Position numbers and translations under genes: made by a program. The notes beneath the pieces are model-generated. The model saw only the letters and a list, made by a program, of their open reading frames with translations. It was not told the origin of the DNA and ran no database searches. This document shows positions 4,485 through 14,563 of a stretch of 14,563 nt of DNA, piece after piece. Every line of letters starts with the position of its first letter. The stretch's first letter is position 1. Origin of the DNA: Gemmatimonadota bacterium (GTDB taxonomy: Bacteria > GCA-2686955); the NCBI GenBank assembly GCA_002686955.1, contig NYZA01000127.1, positions 1 to 14,563 of the forward strand, written 5' to 3'.

Positions 4485-4498
4485 GCGAGCTGCGCTCA
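4482..4498. terminator. Small hairpin between convergent pilin and deoA stops
   Basis: TGAGCG (4482-4487) pairs with CGCTCA (4493-4498) around a 5-nt loop. The arms contain the pilin TGA on one strand and the deoA TGA on the other. There is no U-tract on either side, so it is at best a weak bidirectional terminator or a 3'-end stabiliser. Confidence 0.3.
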
Positions 4499-5800
4499 AT
4501 CGATCCGATCGACCAGAAGTGGTTGCGGGGGCACGGGGTCTGGGCCGATGGTAAATGCTGCCGCGGCGCGTGATCGAGCAGACTCCGCCCCGGCCTCGTC
4601 GCGGGCGTAGATCCGCAGGAGCGATTCGCCCCGGTCCGCGTACTCACCGGGTTTGACACGAAGGACCAGCCCCACCGCGGGATCGATCGGGTCACCCACA
4701 CTCTTGCGGCCTGCCCCCATATCGACGGCCAGCTCCCCCAGCGCCCGTCCGTCGATCTCAACGATCCGACCCGACTGGGGAACGGGAAGATCAACGACTA
4801 CCGGGCCGGCTGGGAGGAGAGCGCGGTCGGTGGCTACCCGAGGATCGCCCCCTTGCGCTTCGACGAAGCGGGCGAATACCTCCAGCGCGTCGCCGGAATC
4901 GAGGGCGTGGGTGATCGAGAGCTCCGCCGCGGCGCGAGATTCGGCGGCATCGGAGAGCAGCAGCATTTCGGCGCCGAGCGCCACTACCAGCTCCCTGAGA
5001 TCGGCCGGCCCGGCACCGTGCAAAAGATCGATCGCCTCGGCGACCTCTAGTGCATTTCCGATTGCCGCACCGAGCGGTGCGTCCATCGCGGTGATCAAGG
5101 CTACGGAAGATCGGCCGGCGGCCCGGGTGACGTCCACCAATGCGCGGGCCAGCGACCGGGCGTCAGCGAGCTGCCGCATGAATGCGCCCCGTCCGACCTT
5201 GACGTCGTAGACGAGTCCGGCCGGCCCCGCGGCGAGCTTCTTGCCTACGATCGAGCCGACGATCAGGGGCAACGAATCGACAGTCGCCGTGACATCGCGC
5301 AGGGCATAGAGCACCCGGTCGGCGGGAGCCAGGTCGCTGGTCTGCCCCACGATCGCGCAACCGGCGCGCGCGACGACGCTCTTGAACTGGTCGATGCTCA
5401 GGTCGGCGCGAAAGCCGGGGATCGATTCCAGCTTGTCGAGCGTTCCTCCGGTGTGGCCGAGGCCGCGACCGGAGAGCATCGGAACCGGGACGCCGCAAGC
5501 CGCGACAGCCGGCGCGAGTGCCAGGGAAGTCTTGTCACCAACGCCACCGGTCGAGTGTTTGTCGACGGTCTTGGGGCCGAGGGCGGAGAGATCGAGCACG
5601 CATCCCGAGTCGCGAATGGCCCGTGTATAGGCGGCCGTTTCTTCGGATGTCATGCCGCGAAAGTAGATCGCCATCAGAAGGGCGGAGACCTGATAGTCGG
5701 GTATCTCTTGCCTTGAAACAGCTCGAACCCAGGCGTCGATATCGGCGGTAGGGATCGGCTGCCCACGCTTCTTGAGCTCGATCAGCTCGATGGGGTTCAT
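4496..5800 (-). CDS. deoA: Thymidine / pyrimidine-nucleoside phosphorylase
   Basis: A 434-aa member of the nucleoside phosphorylase II family at normal length. Phosphorolyses thymidine or deoxyuridine (and in broad-specificity forms uridine) to the base plus (deoxy)ribose-1-phosphate. Conserved blocks are the phosphate site VDKHSTGGVGDKTSL (His82 in the HSTGGVGDK loop), SGRGLGHTGGTLDKLESIPG, the base/sugar site YALRDVTATVDSLPL with its Arg, GSIVGKKLA with the Ser and Lys of the active site, and DVKVGRGAFM. These resemble E. coli DeoA slightly more than Bacillus Pdp, though specificity cannot be settled by eye. The ATG at 5800 is 22 nt after the exported-protein gene. It is the last gene of the nucleoside microcompartment run, facing the pilin gene. 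No obvious microcompartment targeting extension is seen, so it may act in the cytosol. Confidence 0.93.
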   Translation of the reverse strand: MNPIELIELKKRGQPIPTADIDAWVRAVSRQEIPDYQVSALLMAIYFRGMTSEETAAYTRAIRDSGCVLDLSALGPKTVDKHSTGGVGDKTSLALAPAVAACGVPVPMLSGRGLGHTGGTLDKLESIPGFRADLSIDQFKSVVARAGCAIVGQTSDLAPADRVLYALRDVTATVDSLPLIVGSIVGKKLAAGPAGLVYDVKVGRGAFMRQLADARSLARALVDVTRAAGRSSVALITAMDAPLGAAIGNALEVAEAIDLLHGAGPADLRELVVALGAEMLLLSDAAESRAAAELSITHALDSGDALEVFARFVEAQGGDPRVATDRALLPAGPVVVDLPVPQSGRIVEIDGRALGELAVDMGAGRKSVGDPIDPAVGLVLRVKPGEYADRGESLLRIYARDEAGAESARSRAAAAFTIGPDPVPPQPLLVDRID

Positions 5801-5822
5801 TGGAAGGTCTCACTCATGGAGG

Positions 5823-6302
5823 TCAGAAGCGAAGCGAGAATCGGACGTCTCCCCCGCCATCCAATGATGGCTTCAGGAGCAGCTCGCTACGGGCTGGCCG
5901 CGTCTCGTCCCCATAGAGGCGAAGCAGTAAGGCGGCGGTGGTGAGTGTGGCCAAGCCCGTCGCGGCGGCCATTGTACGAGCGCGGTTGCCCTCATCCCAC
6001 TCCGCCAGCGCTTGCTCGTGGAGGGAGCGCCTTTCACCGAAAGCGCGGCTCGGATCGTGGGAGCGGGCATCGAGGGTGCGCGCTCTCCGCCAGTGGTCGA
6101 GCGCACTGCCAAGGAATAGGCCGGTGGCTGTTCCCGCCGCGGCCGAGATCACCCAGGCGCCGACCCGCCTGCGGGCCGCGCGGTCGATCGGGTCGACGGC
6201 TGTCGCTGGCACGCCGGGATCCGCTGAAGCGGCCGGAGCGAAAATCGAAAGGGCGAGGATCGAGAGAAGGGTCCGCGCAAGGGCAAAGCAACCGCCCCTC
6301 AA
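5823..6302 (-). CDS. Exported/membrane protein of unknown function inside the nucleoside operon
   Basis: A 159-aa protein I do not recognise. Residues 1-27 look like a signal peptide (basic start, hydrophobic [13 protein letters not shown], Ala-x-Ala before DPG). A predicted helix at 47-67 ([19 protein letters not shown]) and another at 110-130 flank a polar, charged stretch. The C-terminus SLLLKP... to DVRFSLRF ends in Phe with alternating hydrophobic residues, as some outer-membrane-inserted strands do, which is only suggestive. The start is TTG at 6302, forming a TTGA overlap with the deoC stop and preceded by GGAG. This coupling says it is co-translated with deoC, yet an exported protein has no obvious job in a cytosolic microcompartment; uptake or sensing of nucleosides is speculation. 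Confidence 0.65.
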
Positions 6303-7171
6303 GCGGCTGCGCTCCGCTCATCGGTCACGATCTTGACCGAAGCGCTGGCGCCTATCCTGCTGGCGCCCGCCTCGATCATGCGGCGTGCGGTCTCGGTGTC
6401 GCCAACACCGCCGGACGCCTTCACGCCCATCTCTTGCCCCACGGTTTGGCGCATCAGCAGGATGTCTTCGATCGTGGCTCCCCCCTTGCTGAAACCGGTC
6501 GAGGTCTTGACATAGTCGGCACCCGCCAGGCGCGCGGCGCGGCAGGCCCGCACCTTTTCGTCGTCGGTGAGCAGCGCCGTTTCGATGATCACCTTGACCA
6601 GTGCCCCGCCCGCGGCGGCGTCGGCCACGCCTCGAATGTCGTTCTCGACGACCTTGAAATCGCCCGACTTGGCGGCGCCGATATTCATCACCATGTCGAT
6701 CTCGTGCGCGCCCTCTTCGATGGCCCGCTTCGTTTCGTAGCTCTTCGCGGCGGGGGAAGTCGCGCCAAGAGGGAAGCCCACGACGGTGCAGACCTTGACT
6801 TTCGTGCCTCTGAGCAGCTTCGCGGCCAATGGCACATAGTACGGATTGACGCAGCAACTCGCGAAACCGTGCTGCTTGGCTTCGAGGCAGAGCTGGGCAA
6901 CTTGGTGACGCGTCGCTTCGGGCTTGAGCAGAGTGTGGTCGATATGCGCGGCGAGGGTGGGACGAACGGAGCGGACACCGGGGGCGGCGCTGATCCTCGC
7001 GGCGCCGTTGGCGTGGAGCACCTGGACCACATCGTGGCGCTTCCTCAGGCAATGGCCCGAGTTCGTACATGGAGTGCACTGGGTGAAGGAGTGCGAGGCG
7101 CCGGCCCCTTCCTTACGGAGCGCCTCGAGAACGTGATCGGTGATCCGCTCGACCAATTGAGTGTGGTTCAT
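6299..7171 (-). CDS. deoC: Deoxyribose-phosphate aldolase with BMC-type N-terminal extension
   Basis: A 290-aa class I aldolase cleaving 2-deoxyribose-5-phosphate to glyceraldehyde-3-phosphate and acetaldehyde. The catalytic TIM barrel begins near residue 73 ([14 protein letters not shown]). Active-site residues are Asp159 in [10 protein letters not shown], the Schiff-base Lys222 in [15 protein letters not shown] and Lys251 in VKASGGV. Ordinary DeoC is about 220-260 aa; the extra 70 residues are N-terminal. Residues 4-18 ([15 protein letters not shown]) form an amphipathic helix like those that target enzymes into bacterial microcompartments. They are followed by [10 protein letters not shown] (Cys32, 35, 41), a possible metal or Fe-S ligand set. 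The ATG at 7171 overlaps the stop of a shell-protein gene (ATGA). The enzyme call is certain; encapsulation is inferred from the helix and context. Confidence 0.94.
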
Positions 7172-7470
7172 GCCTGCTTGCCCGCGGTGTCGGTGCTCGG
7201 AGAATCGAGATCAATGGCGTCTACGACGGCGACGATGACGGCCTGAAGCGGGATCCGATCCCGCCCCAAGAGGATTCTCGCACCTCCCCCCTCTTTGGAG
7301 ACAAGAACGGTGTCGCCTTCGCCGGCATCGACCTGATCAACCGCCAGAAAAGTAGCGCCCTCGGGGGCCTGGTCGAGACCGAGCGGCTGGACCACTAGGA
7401 GTTTGTACCCGCTCAGATTCGGGTCTTTCTCCGTCGCTACGACCGTGCCGGCGACCTTGCAGATGATCAT
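7168..7470 (-). CDS. BMC pentameric shell (vertex) protein, EutN/CcmL family, copy 1
   Basis: A 100-aa EutN/CcmL (BMC-P) protein. Pentamers of this OB-like fold cap the twelve vertices of bacterial microcompartments. Family features are the opening [28 protein letters not shown], a central [21 protein letters not shown] and the closing [16 protein letters not shown] short polar tail ([12 protein letters not shown]) extends past the core. It keeps a GxAR-like turn where typical members have GSSAR. It is copy 1 counting from deoC; its stop overlaps the deoC start (ATGA). It starts at ATG 7470, 56 nt after the previous shell gene, the longest gap inside this run. Neither this gap nor the flanks shows a clear terminator. 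Confidence 0.92.
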
Positions 7471-7526
7471 GGCCCGTCAGTCTACCTCATGGCTCGCGTG
7501 GCTCCGACATCGGTCCTTCGGCCGCC

Positions 7527-7814
7527 TCATTTGCGCCAAGGCGGCGCGAAATCGCCGTCGATCCGATCCACGATGCCGACGATCGCCAAATCGACCGGCA
7601 AGAGCGCGACGTCGAATGGCAGGCTCGCCTCTCTCGAGCCAACGGTGATCACCAATTCGTCGGGTCCGGCACCCACGGCGTCGACCGCCGCTTCCGGCGC
7701 ACCGATCGGATTCCGTTCAAAATCGAGAGGCTGAACGATCCGCATGCCGAGCCCCACGAGGCCCGGATCCTTCTGCGTGGCCCAAATCGTTCCTATCACG
7801 CGCGCGAGATTCAT
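7527..7814 (-). CDS. BMC pentameric shell (vertex) protein, EutN/CcmL family, copy 2 (divergent)
   Basis: A 95-aa EutN/CcmL protein. The N-terminus [21 protein letters not shown] and the strands IVQPLDF, AVDAVGAGPDELVITVG and PVDLAIVGIVDRIDG are typical. The usual GSSAR turn before the last strands is replaced by GSREASLPFDVALL, so the surface there differs from copies 1 and 3. The C-terminus is short and ends APPWRK. The ATG at 7814 overlaps the rpiB stop in an ATGA. It presumably occupies vertices alone or in mixed particles with the other two pentamer paralogs. Confidence 0.92.
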   Translation of the reverse strand: MNLARVIGTIWATQKDPGLVGLGMRIVQPLDFERNPIGAPEAAVDAVGAGPDELVITVGSREASLPFDVALLPVDLAIVGIVDRIDGDFAPPWRK

Positions 7815-8491
7815 GGCCGGCCGCCCGCCATGCGTTGCTCGAGAGCGGTGATCTTGTCGATGCGCTTCTGGTGGCGCTCTCCGCCGAACTCCGTCTTGAG
7901 GAAGGTCCGAACGAGCTGATCGGCCAGCCCTTCGCCGATCAGGCGGGCTCCAAGGGTCAGCACATTGGCGTCGTTGTGCTCCCGTGCATTGCGGCAGCTC
8001 GAAATGTCATAGGCGAGAGCCGCGCGAATGCCCGGGACTTTGTTGGCGGCCATGCAGGAGCCGATGCCGGCCCCGTCGAGCACGATGCCCCGCGCGGCGG
8101 CGCCGGCGGAGACGAGAATCGCCACGCGTTCGGCGATGTCGGGGTAGTCGACCGGATCGGTGCCATGGCAGCCGATGTCTTGCGGCGCGAAGCCCAGATC
8201 GCGAACCGAAGCGAGCACGGTACGCTTCATCTGAACACCCCCGTGATCGCAGCCAATGGCGATTCGGGCGCCGCTGGCGGGAAATGGTGCGGAGGGCGGA
8301 GCGGCGGCGACTCGGCCCCGAACTACAACGATTCGCCGGTCGCGAATCGCGTCGGCGGCGAGGGGGGTAATCAGCGTTCGCTCGCCCAGACGAAGCTCGG
8401 AGCCGGGAGCAAGGGAACGGGCGGCCGCTTCGGCGACCAGCCGCAGCTCGCTCCAGTCGACGACGGTGGTGCCGAGATCAGGCCGATTCAA
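7811..8491 (-). CDS. rpiB: RpiB-family sugar-phosphate isomerase with BMC-type N-terminal module
   Basis: A 226-aa RpiB/LacAB family isomerase (about 150 aa core) plus a 72-residue N-terminal module. The core starts at [11 protein letters not shown] (75-85) and includes [37 protein letters not shown] and [17 protein letters not shown] (His172). RpiB interconverts ribose-5-P and ribulose-5-P. The residue matching the catalytic Cys of E. coli RpiB (CGTG) is Asp139 here (DGAG); Cys146 lies seven residues on. Thus either the mechanism is altered or the substrate is another sugar phosphate. The N-terminus has an amphipathic helix (13-27) and [21 protein letters not shown], resembling the start of EutT. 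The start chosen is TTG 8491, with GGAG 6 nt upstream; the ATG at 8497 directly abuts that GGAG. The gene overlaps the shell gene upstream and ends in an ATGA overlap with shell copy 2. Confidence 0.9.
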
Positions 8492-8774
8492 CGCCATCTC
8501 CGTCGGAGACTGAGACGTCGAGCCGATCGACGATGGCCATGATGACCGCATCGACCGGGCGGTCGGTGGTGACTTGTGTCTGGCGAGCGGAGCTGCCCCC
8601 CGCGTAGAGCACAACTTCGCTCACTCCGGCACCGACGGAGTCCGCCGCCACGACGAAGCTGGATTTGAAGGAATGGTCGAGATCGAGGTCTCGCACGATG
8701 AGCAGCTTCAAGCCGGTGAGTGAGTCCACCTTGCGGGTCGCCCAGACCGTTCCCACCACTCGCCCCAGCTTCAT
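8478..8774 (-). CDS. BMC pentameric shell (vertex) protein, EutN/CcmL family, copy 3
   Basis: A 98-aa EutN/CcmL protein and the most canonical of the three. Starts [21 protein letters not shown], then [26 protein letters not shown], the family turn GGSSARQT, and [16 protein letters not shown], followed by an acidic tail. Its ATG at 8774 overlaps the cdd stop in an ATGA and its 3' end overlaps the start of rpiB by 14-20 nt. It is therefore embedded in a translationally coupled string cdd, shell 3, rpiB, shell 2. The short interspersed shell genes among enzyme genes are typical of metabolosome operons. Confidence 0.93.
8498..8501 (-). promoter_or_regulatory. Shine-Dalgarno deciding the rpiB start
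   Basis: GGAG on the minus strand sits 6 nt before TTG 8491 but directly touches ATG 8497 with no spacer. This favours initiation at the TTG. Start sites were judged by eye only. Confidence 0.45.
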
Positions 8775-9211
8775 GATCGACCGCCTTCGCGCGCGGGGGG
8801 GGGATCGAAGGAGAAGCTGTCGGGGAGAAGAGCTTCGATGCTCGTTTCGACCCGCTCACCCCGCTGATTCACCAGCAACACCCGTGCCCCACCCCCGAAC
8901 TCCGCGATCACCTGACGACAGGCGCCGCAGGGAGACGCCGGCGGGGAGGAGGTCGAGGCGACGGCGACCGTGCGCACCTCTCTTGCTCCCGCAGTGACCG
9001 CCGCCCCGATCGCGATCCGCTCGGCGCAGATCGTCAGCCCATAGGAGGCGTTCTCCACATTGACCCCCTCGAAGACACCGACTTCGGTCTCGACGACCGC
9101 CCCCACCGGAAAGCGAGAGTAGGGAGCGTAGGCGTTGCCGAGCACTCGGAGGGCCTCTTTGATTAGCTCGTCGTCATTCAATCGATCGATCCCGGCGATG
9201 TGGGCGTCCAA
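8771..9211 (-). CDS. cdd: Cytidine deaminase
   Basis: A 146-aa homotetramer-type cytidine deaminase converting cytidine/deoxycytidine to uridine/deoxyuridine plus ammonia. Zinc and catalytic residues are clear: ICAE (Cys62, Glu64) after NASYGLT, and PCGACRQV (Cys95, Cys98). [11 protein letters not shown] (28-38) is the family's nucleoside-binding start. The start as given is TTG at 9211. A second TTG at 9181 (136 aa, DDELIKEAL...) fits usual family length better, and neither has a strong ribosome-binding site. A 9-bp C homopolymer near the 3' end encodes three Pro in the tail. The stop overlaps shell gene 3 (ATGA). As first gene of the locus, it feeds pyrimidine deoxynucleosides to DeoA. Confidence 0.93.
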
Positions 9212-12878: not shown

Positions 12879-13484
12879 TCAGCGAAGCTTGAAGTCCACC
12901 GGCACCGCGATCTGAACTCGAACCGCACGGTCACGCTGCATGGCGGGGTTGAACTTCCACTGTTTCACGGCCTCGAGCGCGGCATCGTCCAGTCCCGGGA
13001 TCGATCCTATGACCTTCGCTTCGATCACGCTGCCCTCCTCGTCCACCCCAACCAGCACGCGGACCGTGCCCTCGATCCCGGCGCGTCGCGCGAGCGATGG
13101 GTATTTGGGGTCGACCTTCTTCTTGACCGTCGGGGCGACATCGTACGCAACGAAATAAACAGGTGCATCGGGCTCGGGCGGCGGGGTCCAAACCGTGTCG
13201 ATGACCGTGTCCGCGATCGTCACATCGTCCGGAACTTCGTCGCTTTCGGTCTCGATCGGAATCGAAGGGCGTGGAGGCGCCTTGATCTGTTGCTGTTGCT
13301 GGATCTCGGGCGGAATGTCGAAGGTCACGATCTTGTCGAGACTCTCCGACTCGTAATCTGTGTCGTCTGATCCTTTGACGATAAGAAAGAGCAGAGTGGA
13401 AATCAGCAGCGCGAGAAGCACCGACTTCTCGTAGGTGATCTCGCTAAACCGCTTCAGATCGGCTTCGGGGTGCTTTCGGATCAT
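12879..13484 (-). CDS. TonB-family energy transducer
   Basis: A 201-aa short TonB. A cytoplasmic basic N-terminus (MIRKHPEADLKRF) leads to a membrane anchor at about 21-37 (SVLLALLISTLLFLIVK). A periplasmic Pro/acidic linker follows (QQQQQIKAPPRPSIP, then acidic stretch 79-93), and then a C-terminal TonB domain from about 118 (VDPKYPSLARRAGIEGTVRVLV, DDAALEAVKQWKFNPA, VRVQIAVPVDFKL). It transmits proton-motive force from ExbB/ExbD to outer-membrane receptors. The start is ATG 13484 in an ATGA overlap with the exbD stop. A longer in-frame reading to 13901 overlaps exbD entirely and is a shadow. A short linker suggests a modest periplasm span. Confidence 0.9.
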   Translation of the reverse strand: MIRKHPEADLKRFSEITYEKSVLLALLISTLLFLIVKGSDDTDYESESLDKIVTFDIPPEIQQQQQIKAPPRPSIPIETESDEVPDDVTIADTVIDTVWTPPPEPDAPVYFVAYDVAPTVKKKVDPKYPSLARRAGIEGTVRVLVGVDEEGSVIEAKVIGSIPGLDDAALEAVKQWKFNPAMQRDRAVRVQIAVPVDFKLR

Positions 13485-13894
13485 CGTTCCGTCACTGTTG
13501 CGAGGTTGACCTGAAGCACATTCCCGCGCTTGAACTCCTCGAATACATTCTCGACGAAGCCGTAGCGCGCGTCCTTGTCCACCTTGATATTGGTCACGAT
13601 CTCCGGATTCGTCGCGAGCTTGCTCCCCATGACTCTCGAGACCTGCGGCAGATCGACGATCAGATCGTCGATGCAAACCCGCCCCTGCCGATCCACCCAA
13701 ACAGAGCAGATATTCCGTCGCTTGTCCGGGATCTTCCTGGTCGACTCGGCCTTCGGCAGCACCACGTCGATCCCCTGGAACTTCACGAATACCGTCGAAA
13801 CCATGAAGAAGATCAGCAGTAGAAACGCAATATCCGACATCGAAGCGGTCGGGAGCTCCGCCACCGGCGCGGCCGATTTCTTGAACTTCGCCAC
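13481..13894 (-). CDS. ExbD/TolR-family biopolymer transport protein (copy 2)
   Basis: A 137-aa protein with the ExbD layout. A short basic cytoplasmic tail is followed by a single TM helix MSDIAFLLLIFFMVSTVF (Asp21 is the conserved proton-path residue) and a periplasmic domain (VVLPKAE, VWVDRQGRVCIDD, IKVDKDARYGFVENVFEEFK). It starts at GTG 13894, preceded by GAGGG 7 nt upstream and 3 nt after the previous stop. Its stop overlaps tonB. With ExbB it forms the stator-like motor driving TonB; presence of two ExbD paralogs in tandem is common in FCB-type loci, perhaps forming a heteromeric complex. Confidence 0.92.
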   Translation of the reverse strand: MAKFKKSAAPVAELPTASMSDIAFLLLIFFMVSTVFVKFQGIDVVLPKAESTRKIPDKRRNICSVWVDRQGRVCIDDLIVDLPQVSRVMGSKLATNPEIVTNIKVDKDARYGFVENVFEEFKRGNVLQVNLATVTER

Positions 13895-13897
13895 AGC

Positions 13898-14305
13898 TCA
13901 ACCCTCTCGTGCCGCGAGCGAAACGCGGGTCGCTCTCGACTTCTTCAGCTCATCCATCACGTCGATCATGACCTTGTACGGCGCGAGCGGATCGGTCTTG
14001 AGCGAGATGATCAAGCGCTCGTTCTCGGCGAGCCGTCGCCTGACCTCGTTCTCGATGTTGCCCACCGGCATGATCTTTCGCTCGACGGCGACCGCCCCGG
14101 CCGAGTTGATCCAGATATGGCAGATGTTCTTCTTCTGCACCTGGGTCTCTTCGGACTCCGCCGGCAGCACGATCTTCATGCCTTTGTCTTTGCTGAAGGT
14201 CGTTGTGACCAAGAAGAAAAAGAGCAGCAGGAACGCAATATCGGCCATCGATCCGGTCGGGATGCTCGCCTCGCCGGCTCCTTTTCGCTTTCTCTGCAAG
14301 GCCAC
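13898..14305 (-). CDS. ExbD/TolR-family biopolymer transport protein (copy 1)
   Basis: A 135-aa ExbD-family protein. A basic N-terminus (MALQRKRKGAGEA) and a single TM helix SMADIAFLLLFFFLVTTTF carry Asp22 as the conserved membrane acid. A periplasmic part follows (IVLPAESEE, IWINSAGAVAVERKIMPV, SLKTDPLAPYKVMIDVMDELK). It starts at GTG 14305, 3 nt after the exbB stop, and is followed 3 nt later by its paralog. Divergence from copy 2 is mainly in the periplasmic part. Confidence 0.92.
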   Translation of the reverse strand: MALQRKRKGAGEASIPTGSMADIAFLLLFFFLVTTTFSKDKGMKIVLPAESEETQVQKKNICHIWINSAGAVAVERKIMPVGNIENEVRRRLAENERLIISLKTDPLAPYKVMIDVMDELKKSRATRVSLAAREG

Positions 14306-14308
14306 GGG

Positions 14309-14563
14309 TCAGCTCGCCGCGTTCGAGCCGGCCCCCTCATCGAGGATCGCGACCAGTGCGGCCGCCGACTCCTGCATATCGATGACCAGGCCGTTCACCT
14401 TGTTGAGGAAGAAGTTATACGAAAGCTGGAAGGGGATGGCTACGACCAACCCGCCGAGAGTCGTGAGCAGCGCGATCGAGATGCCGGATGCCACGATCGT
14501 CGGCTCGACCTCGCCGGCCGCCGCGATCGCATCGAACGCCTGGATCATGCCCCAGACCGTTCC
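14309..14563 (-). CDS. ExbB/TolQ/MotA-family proton channel protein, 5' part outside window
   Basis: The C-terminal 84 residues of an ExbB family protein; the beginning lies beyond the right edge. GTVWGMIQAF just at the edge is the family signature (GTVxGMIxAF). It is followed by GISIALLTTLGGLVVAIPFQL, the last transmembrane helix, and a cytoplasmic helix (LSYNFFLNKVNGLVIDMQESAAALVAIL). With the two ExbD proteins it would form the proton-driven motor that energises TonB. Confidence 0.92.
   Translation of the reverse strand, partial: GTVWGMIQAFDAIAAAGEVEPTIVASGISIALLTTLGGLVVAIPFQLSYNFFLNKVNGLVIDMQESAAALVAILDEGAGSNAAS

Follow-up and report, generated by a model that had tools for sequence, protein, structure and literature searches.

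Why would a bacterium keep three genes for pentameric vertex proteins of a bacterial microcompartment (BMC-P) among genes of pyrimidine salvage, with no gene for a hexameric (BMC-H) or trimeric (BMC-T) shell protein beside them? The question is raised by contig C127 (NYZA01000127.1; 14,563 bp), the whole of which is referred to here as the window. The contig belongs to the metagenome-assembled genome (MAG) of a Gemmatimonadota bacterium, labelled G000, which comprises 4.28 Mb in 270 contigs and is 84.5% complete with 0.9% contamination. A minus-strand run in the window reads cdd, BMC-P, rpiB, BMC-P, BMC-P, deoC, a gene for an exported protein and deoA. We believe, with a probability of roughly 85%, that the window is an enzyme-bearing satellite of one metabolosome of the sugar-phosphate-utilising (SPU) type, the genes of which are split over at least three genomic places.

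The run was described in a first-pass annotation made from the sequence alone, and its gene order, strand and coordinates hold, with family matches far over cut-off. The gene cdd (8771-9211, minus strand like all genes of the run; TIGR01354, 4.3e-38) encodes a cytidine/deoxycytidine deaminase and begins with TTG. The three small open reading frames (ORFs) taken to be pentamer genes match PF03319 with 88-101 bits against a gathering cut-off of 25, namely BMC-P a, of the main pentamer clade (8478-8774; 5.3e-29, and 3.8e-26 to the solved pentamer 5v74), BMC-P b (7527-7814; 5.0e-25) and BMC-P c (7168-7470; 1.6e-26). Between the first two lies rpiB (7811-8497; PF02502, 7.7e-50; Foldseek against RpiB structures, 5e-17), which encodes a ribose-5-phosphate isomerase B with an N-terminal extension of ~75 amino acids (aa); its start is most likely the ATG at 8497 (228 aa) rather than the TTG at 8614 given in the ORF list. 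The deoxyribose-phosphate aldolase gene deoC (6299-7171; TIGR00126, 5.8e-87) follows, and the run ends with deoA (4496-5800; NF004490, 1.7e-160; TIGR02644 over cut-off), which encodes a pyrimidine-nucleoside/thymidine phosphorylase. From cdd to deoA the junctions measure -4, -20, -4, +56, -4, -4 and +22 nt, that is, four overlaps of 4 nt and one of 20 nt, and such overlapping or near-touching junctions are the signature of one operon. GC content is fairly even across the window, at 60-68%. As had also been stated, BMC-H, BMC-T, aldehyde dehydrogenase (AldDH), phosphotransacylase and deoB genes are absent, and this is true of the whole contig.

The lack of hexamers beside the pentamers is no longer puzzling once the rest of the genome is considered, since BMC-H, BMC-T, AldDH and PduL are encoded on other contigs. 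A PF00936 search located two BMC-H genes, at C236:1172 and C236:1482, as well as one tandem BMC-T gene (C68:4854-5369); PF03319 matched, besides those in the window, one further gene, BMC-P d, at C236:4258. Contig C236 carries, in order, BMC-H1, BMC-H2, a CoA-acylating AldDH, PduL, BMC-P d, an ACT-like protein and DUF711, and contig C68 carries a PduS-like gene followed by BMC-T. The BMC-T is closest to PduT (3n79, 1.8e-40), and by alignment offset its Cys43 corresponds to PduT Cys38, the Fe-S ligand of that protein. Non-BMC genes flank the run in the window over 4.5 kb on one side and 5.4 kb on the other, so the window is not a severed piece of C236 or C68. The first-pass annotation had left two readings of the pentamers, a satellite locus or a role other than capping a shell, and the shell genes found elsewhere in the genome favour the former. 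Of the genes it had named as worth seeking outside the window, PF00936, AldDH and PduL genes were all found, and deoB was not found in this 84.5%-complete MAG.

A second genome of the phylum, from another genus (G001), shares this arrangement; the two genomes, both ~84% complete, make up our sample of the phylum. The operon of G001 is identical in order, with 79% identity for DeoC, 71-76% for the BMC-P proteins, 55% for RpiB, 64% for DeoA and 70% for Cdd. The same three-way split is also found, with H1-H2-AldDH-PduL and PduS-BMC-T on separate pieces. The flank from deoA to a nitrilase gene differs, at 3.3 kb in G000 vs ~1.1 kb in G001, with the cdd-deoA block intact. Further afield, a contig of Planctomycetota (L028) shows the core order BMC-P, RpiB, BMC-P, BMC-P, DeoC, as does genome G030, where PduL precedes it. 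The genes, their families, their overlaps, the split and its conservation can all be read directly from the DNA.

All three window BMC-P proteins have matches among solved pentamers, including 5v74 and CcmL, and the closest solved relative of BMC-P a is 5v74, the Haliangium shell pentamer. In a tree of ~60 pentamers the window genes are spread over three different clades (a, b and c), where each is joined by one gene from the triplets at other loci, and BMC-P d groups with the pentamer of locus L135 from an unrelated family, f52. Three vertex paralogs had at first seemed unusual. That impression has to be withdrawn, since BMC-P genes occur mostly singly or as three paralogs and the triplet is common (PMC8217296).

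DeoC and RpiB with shell genes are the combination common to all SPU subtypes (PMC8217296), and in G000 a DeoC-type aldolase (PF01791) and RpiB (PF02502) are linked to shell genes; the genome also encodes BMC-H, BMC-P and a CoA-acylating AldDH, partly on other contigs. The SPU-like class proposed at first pass is thus upheld. As in described SPU systems (PMC4207490, PMC8217296), DeoC and RpiB stand with BMC-P, DeoC is N-extended, and AldDH, PduL, PduS and shell genes are present in the genome; different here are the three-locus split, the inclusion of cdd and deoA in the operon, the TIGR02518-type AldDH and the fourth BMC-P, accompanied by ACT and DUF711 genes. The FRAG1-7 types, of unknown function (PMC8217296), resemble G000 in having shell genes at several places (three contigs here), a BMC-P triplet, an unusual AldDH and occurrence in candidate phyla, whereas the triplet of G000 lies beside the signature enzyme genes deoC and rpiB, which FRAG loci reportedly lack. 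The Haliangium ochraceum (HO) metabolosome, of type I with a satellite of two BMC-P and an aldolase (PMC8217296), is similar in placing an aldolase and pentamers on a satellite, and its pentamer 5v74 is near BMC-P a. However, HO is defined by three BMC-T proteins including double-stacked ones, while the 84.5%-complete MAG revealed no double-stacked BMC-T; it has one tandem PF00936 gene, the PduT-like BMC-T, together with two BMC-H, and adds RpiB, cdd and deoA. In deo operons (deoCABD in E. coli; deoA-deoC-cdd in Firmicutes), DeoC, DeoA and, in Firmicutes, Cdd are likewise clustered, but here DeoC has an encapsulation-like extension, shell genes are interleaved, and neither deoB nor deoD is present. 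In keeping with the satellites of Axen 2014 and Sutter 2021, the locus has PF03319 without PF00936, with other shell genes elsewhere. The strict definition of Axen 2014 demands contiguous shell genes and no other BMC-related genes; given that rpiB lies between the pentamers and deoC after them, the window is satellite-like in the sense of Axen and a satellite in the sense of Sutter. Taken together, this is a fragmented SPU-like metabolosome in which the pentamers and the signature enzymes share an enzyme-bearing satellite with nucleoside salvage built in.

Cargo signals were sought in the enzymes. In an alignment of 32 sequences, DeoC has Lys and Asp at the positions where class I aldolases conserve them. 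It carries ~70 extra N-terminal residues (6950-7171, minus strand), which combine an amphipathic, encapsulation-peptide-like helix with a CxxC...C motif. The helix (residues 3-20) is predicted by AlphaFold2 (AF2) with a per-residue confidence (pLDDT) of ~85 and is amphipathic beyond shuffled sequences (hydrophobic moment muH, p=0.003); that of the G001 DeoC is less so (p=0.17). Loci of Acidobacteriota, Chloroflexota and Planctomycetota share the extension. Its Cys cluster (window 7030-7080, minus strand) is found also in the DeoC of L017, L020, L044 and L064; in most Chloroflexota copies it reads CxxCxxCxxxCP, as in 4Fe-4S ferredoxins, and in other phyla it is degenerate. The AldDHs of G000 and G001 both have a helix-like tail at the C-terminus. 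The best family of the G000 enzyme is the AdhE-like TIGR02518 (603 bits, just under cut-off, vs 262 for NF011927), for which the G001 AldDH is just over cut-off; three SPU-type AldDHs of other loci score best with NF011927, the reverse of the C236 enzyme. Apart from SPU6, the SPU types reportedly have an AldDH on the EUT1-like branch, a trait that is not a stated requirement, and the AldDHs near FRAG shell genes are scattered over the AldDH tree of the 2021 catalogue (PMC8217296).

The informative part of the locus is the presence of cdd and deoA inside the operon, a point that the first-pass annotation left unstressed. Few BMC types are as widespread as the SPU compartments, for which DNA-degradation products were proposed as the substrate from DeoC and RpiB (PMC4207490, PMC8217296), the role in DNA catabolism having been inferred from these two enzymes only. 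Salvage genes within operons extend that proposal. We surveyed adjacency across 386 genomes from throughout the domain, at least 94 of them with PF03319 and at least 308 with a TIGR02644-like match (at least 167 over cut-off). The deoA gene adjoins BMC-P in at least four genomes (G000, G001, G375 and G244; a fifth, G435, in which the two are 17 kb apart, was left out of the count), vs ~0.5 genome expected by chance, on a rough estimate, for proximity within 5 kb. In G375 and G244, two of the three f52 genomes, BMC-P c, DeoC and DeoA are adjacent; in the third, G052, the contig edge comes directly after DeoC. Moreover, each of the three has a deoB gene, with a full TIGR01696 score, upstream of BMC-P a (and b). 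These nucleoside-salvage genes support deoxynucleosides as the likely source of the substrate. No passage linking bacterial microcompartments to thymidine phosphorylase turned up in the papers searched, and the few papers on microcompartments with phosphopentomutase or cytidine deaminase were, by title and abstract, apparently not relevant. With shell and cdd/deoA operons in one lineage and shell and deoA/deoB in another, a deoxynucleoside feed becomes a directly testable idea. In two f52 genomes a gene that by eye resembles deoxyhypusine synthase lies between deoB and BMC-P a (L126 9966-10943; L136 3975-4952). G169 also has a deoB gene close to its SPU locus, which was set aside because two opposite-strand genes intervene, and a GlmM/PGM gene beside BMC-P in f52 was rejected as the missing phosphopentomutase, since it scores as GlmM and the f52 genomes hold true DeoB.

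Based on these observations, we propose the following model. Cdd and DeoA, in the cytosol, would convert (deoxy)cytidine, deoxyuridine and thymidine to the base and deoxyribose-1-phosphate, which a mutase (none identified in G000) would turn into deoxyribose-5-phosphate, the form that would enter the shell. The CoA-acylating AldDH encoded on C236 would convert the acetaldehyde released by DeoC to acetyl-CoA and PduL would then yield acetyl phosphate; RpiB would handle the ribose-5-phosphate side, and electrons would leave via the PduS/PduT-like pair encoded on C68. The facets would consist of the two BMC-H and the BMC-T, with the vertices capped by the three window pentamers and the BMC-P of C236. 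In short, the compartment probably serves to degrade sugars that are salvaged from DNA. Cargo loading, substrate, flux, the sharing of one shell and the vertex role are what we infer from gene content and context.

Several observations weigh against this model. No phosphopentomutase/DeoB (TIGR01696) was found in G000, and in G001, also ~84% complete, deoB appears as a weak partial match only. The GlmM-like homologue that G000 shares with f52 was rejected as the mutase on account of its glmS-like and dnaB-like neighbours; adjoining a glmS-like gene, it is probably a housekeeping enzyme. Neither Cdd nor DeoA carries a cargo extension or encapsulation peptide, and the N-terminal helix of Cdd is not significantly amphipathic (p=0.26), nor, by shuffling, is the C-terminal helix of AldDH (p=0.16). 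The C236 AldDH is not of the EutE/PduP-like type of the other SPU loci checked. The contrast that speaks for the model, PF00936 in 27 of 28 genomes with an extended DeoC vs 3 of 22 with a plain one, is confounded by phylogeny. Finally, the conservation of cdd and deoA within the phylum represents a single lineage of two genomes.

The lack of cargo signals on Cdd and DeoA, the absence of deoB from G000 and the fact that deoA and cdd are missing from most SPU loci examined would suit a compartment whose substrate is not nucleoside-derived, with deoxyribose or other pentose phosphates arriving from elsewhere and cdd and deoA being salvage genes that are neighbours by chance. We consider this unlikely, since deoA stands on the same strand beside BMC-P/deoC in two families and deoB beside BMC-P in the three f52 genomes, and chance would place deoA there far less often than in the survey. 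A second compartment would account for other features, namely the four BMC-P genes, the C236 AldDH of a type not usual for SPU and the incompleteness of the MAG: the C236 pentamer would serve a shell with the BMC-H, AldDH and PduL of that contig, and the window pentamers another, whose hexamers lie in the missing ~15% of the genome. However, each of the two MAGs of the family has one BMC-H pair and one BMC-T only, and the f52 genomes, which are 90-98% complete, combine the same set of Pa-Pd, one H1-H2 pair and one BMC-T, which makes two shells very improbable. Least tenable is the notion that the pentamers are free enzyme scaffolds of a facet-less operon. The window itself, devoid of BMC-H and BMC-T, would allow it, but G000 also encodes two BMC-H, one BMC-T and a further BMC-P, and G001 and the f52 genomes likewise have BMC-H pairs together with a BMC-T; this non-capping role, raised at first pass, is already largely refuted. 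The operons that join shell and salvage genes also suggest a function for some of the scattered shells whose role was open in the 2021 catalogue.

The N-terminus of RpiB holds a further element. Residues 12-61 (window 8315-8464, minus strand) are confidently predicted by AF2 as an E-H-E-H-E unit (pLDDT ~90-97), and a ~45-residue module with the pattern TExD...LTPLAxD appears to be common to the N-termini of SPU RpiBs, the C-terminus of PduL, small proteins encoded next to BMC-H, and the N-termini of EutT and EutQ; occurrences elsewhere lie at L009 4128-4255, L071 11382-11666, L175 7401-8492 and L141 19503-21004. A profile built from 11 segments was searched against 27,288 ORFs and, after one iteration, against 34,704 ORFs. 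The first search returned the SPU RpiBs first, followed by the C-terminus of the G000 PduL (1e-6), a small protein encoded next to BMC-H in loci of Elusimicrobia (best 6e-5), E. coli EutT (0.003) and EutQ (0.04). In the iterated search the values were 1e-10 for the PduL tail, 2e-8 to 2e-4 for the small proteins (one of which had entered the profile, so that second-round scores of its relatives are not independent), 5e-5 for EutT, 0.005 for a gene beside PduL in G169 and 0.09 for EutQ, with 0.67 for the best reversed-sequence match. Probabilities from hhalign were 95-97% for PduL, 78% for EutT and 50% for EutQ, and the membership of EutQ, taken alone, is only suggestive. A search of PDB sequences with hmmsearch gave noise only, no Pfam or NCBIfam model matched the module, and Foldseek with the RpiB model matched the isomerase domain alone. 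In EutQ the N-terminal helices H1/H2 reportedly bind the shell and H3/H4 the cargo peptides (PMC12487888). By analogy with H1/H2, a tentative and rather doubtful idea is that RpiB is a shell-cargo adaptor, its module being a portable domain, shared with the first ~47 residues of EutQ/EutT, the PduL C-terminus and the small BMC-locus proteins, that would dock on the shell. On this reading, scattered shells of the FRAG kind that combine such a BMC-H pair with these pentamers, for example in G054, would be deoxynucleoside-catabolising organelles. Should the module be confirmed in RpiB, EutT, EutQ and PduL, it would point to a common assembly principle.

The remaining observations concern neighbouring genes. 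The exported protein encoded between deoC and deoA (5823-6302, minus strand) has no Pfam or NCBIfam match; it is retained in the sister genus, with 50% identity over 101 aa in L122. Upstream of cdd, an ExbB/ExbD/ExbD/TonB-like run (window 12879-14548) adjoins a gene for a GWxTD-like protein and one for an SLT transglycosylase, all but the last recognised by eye, and the adjacency of SLT and cdd is retained in G001. The C-terminus of BMC-H2 (L009 1419-1895) is extended by a segment that recalls the EutK tail and includes a weak match to HeH/LEM (Pfam E 0.05). After the members of the BMC-P d clade come genes for an ACT-like protein and DUF711, joined in f52 genomes by one for a nitrilase (L009 4258-6473; L135 9634-12782; L164 5386-8410), a homologue of which is encoded in the window at 193-1236.

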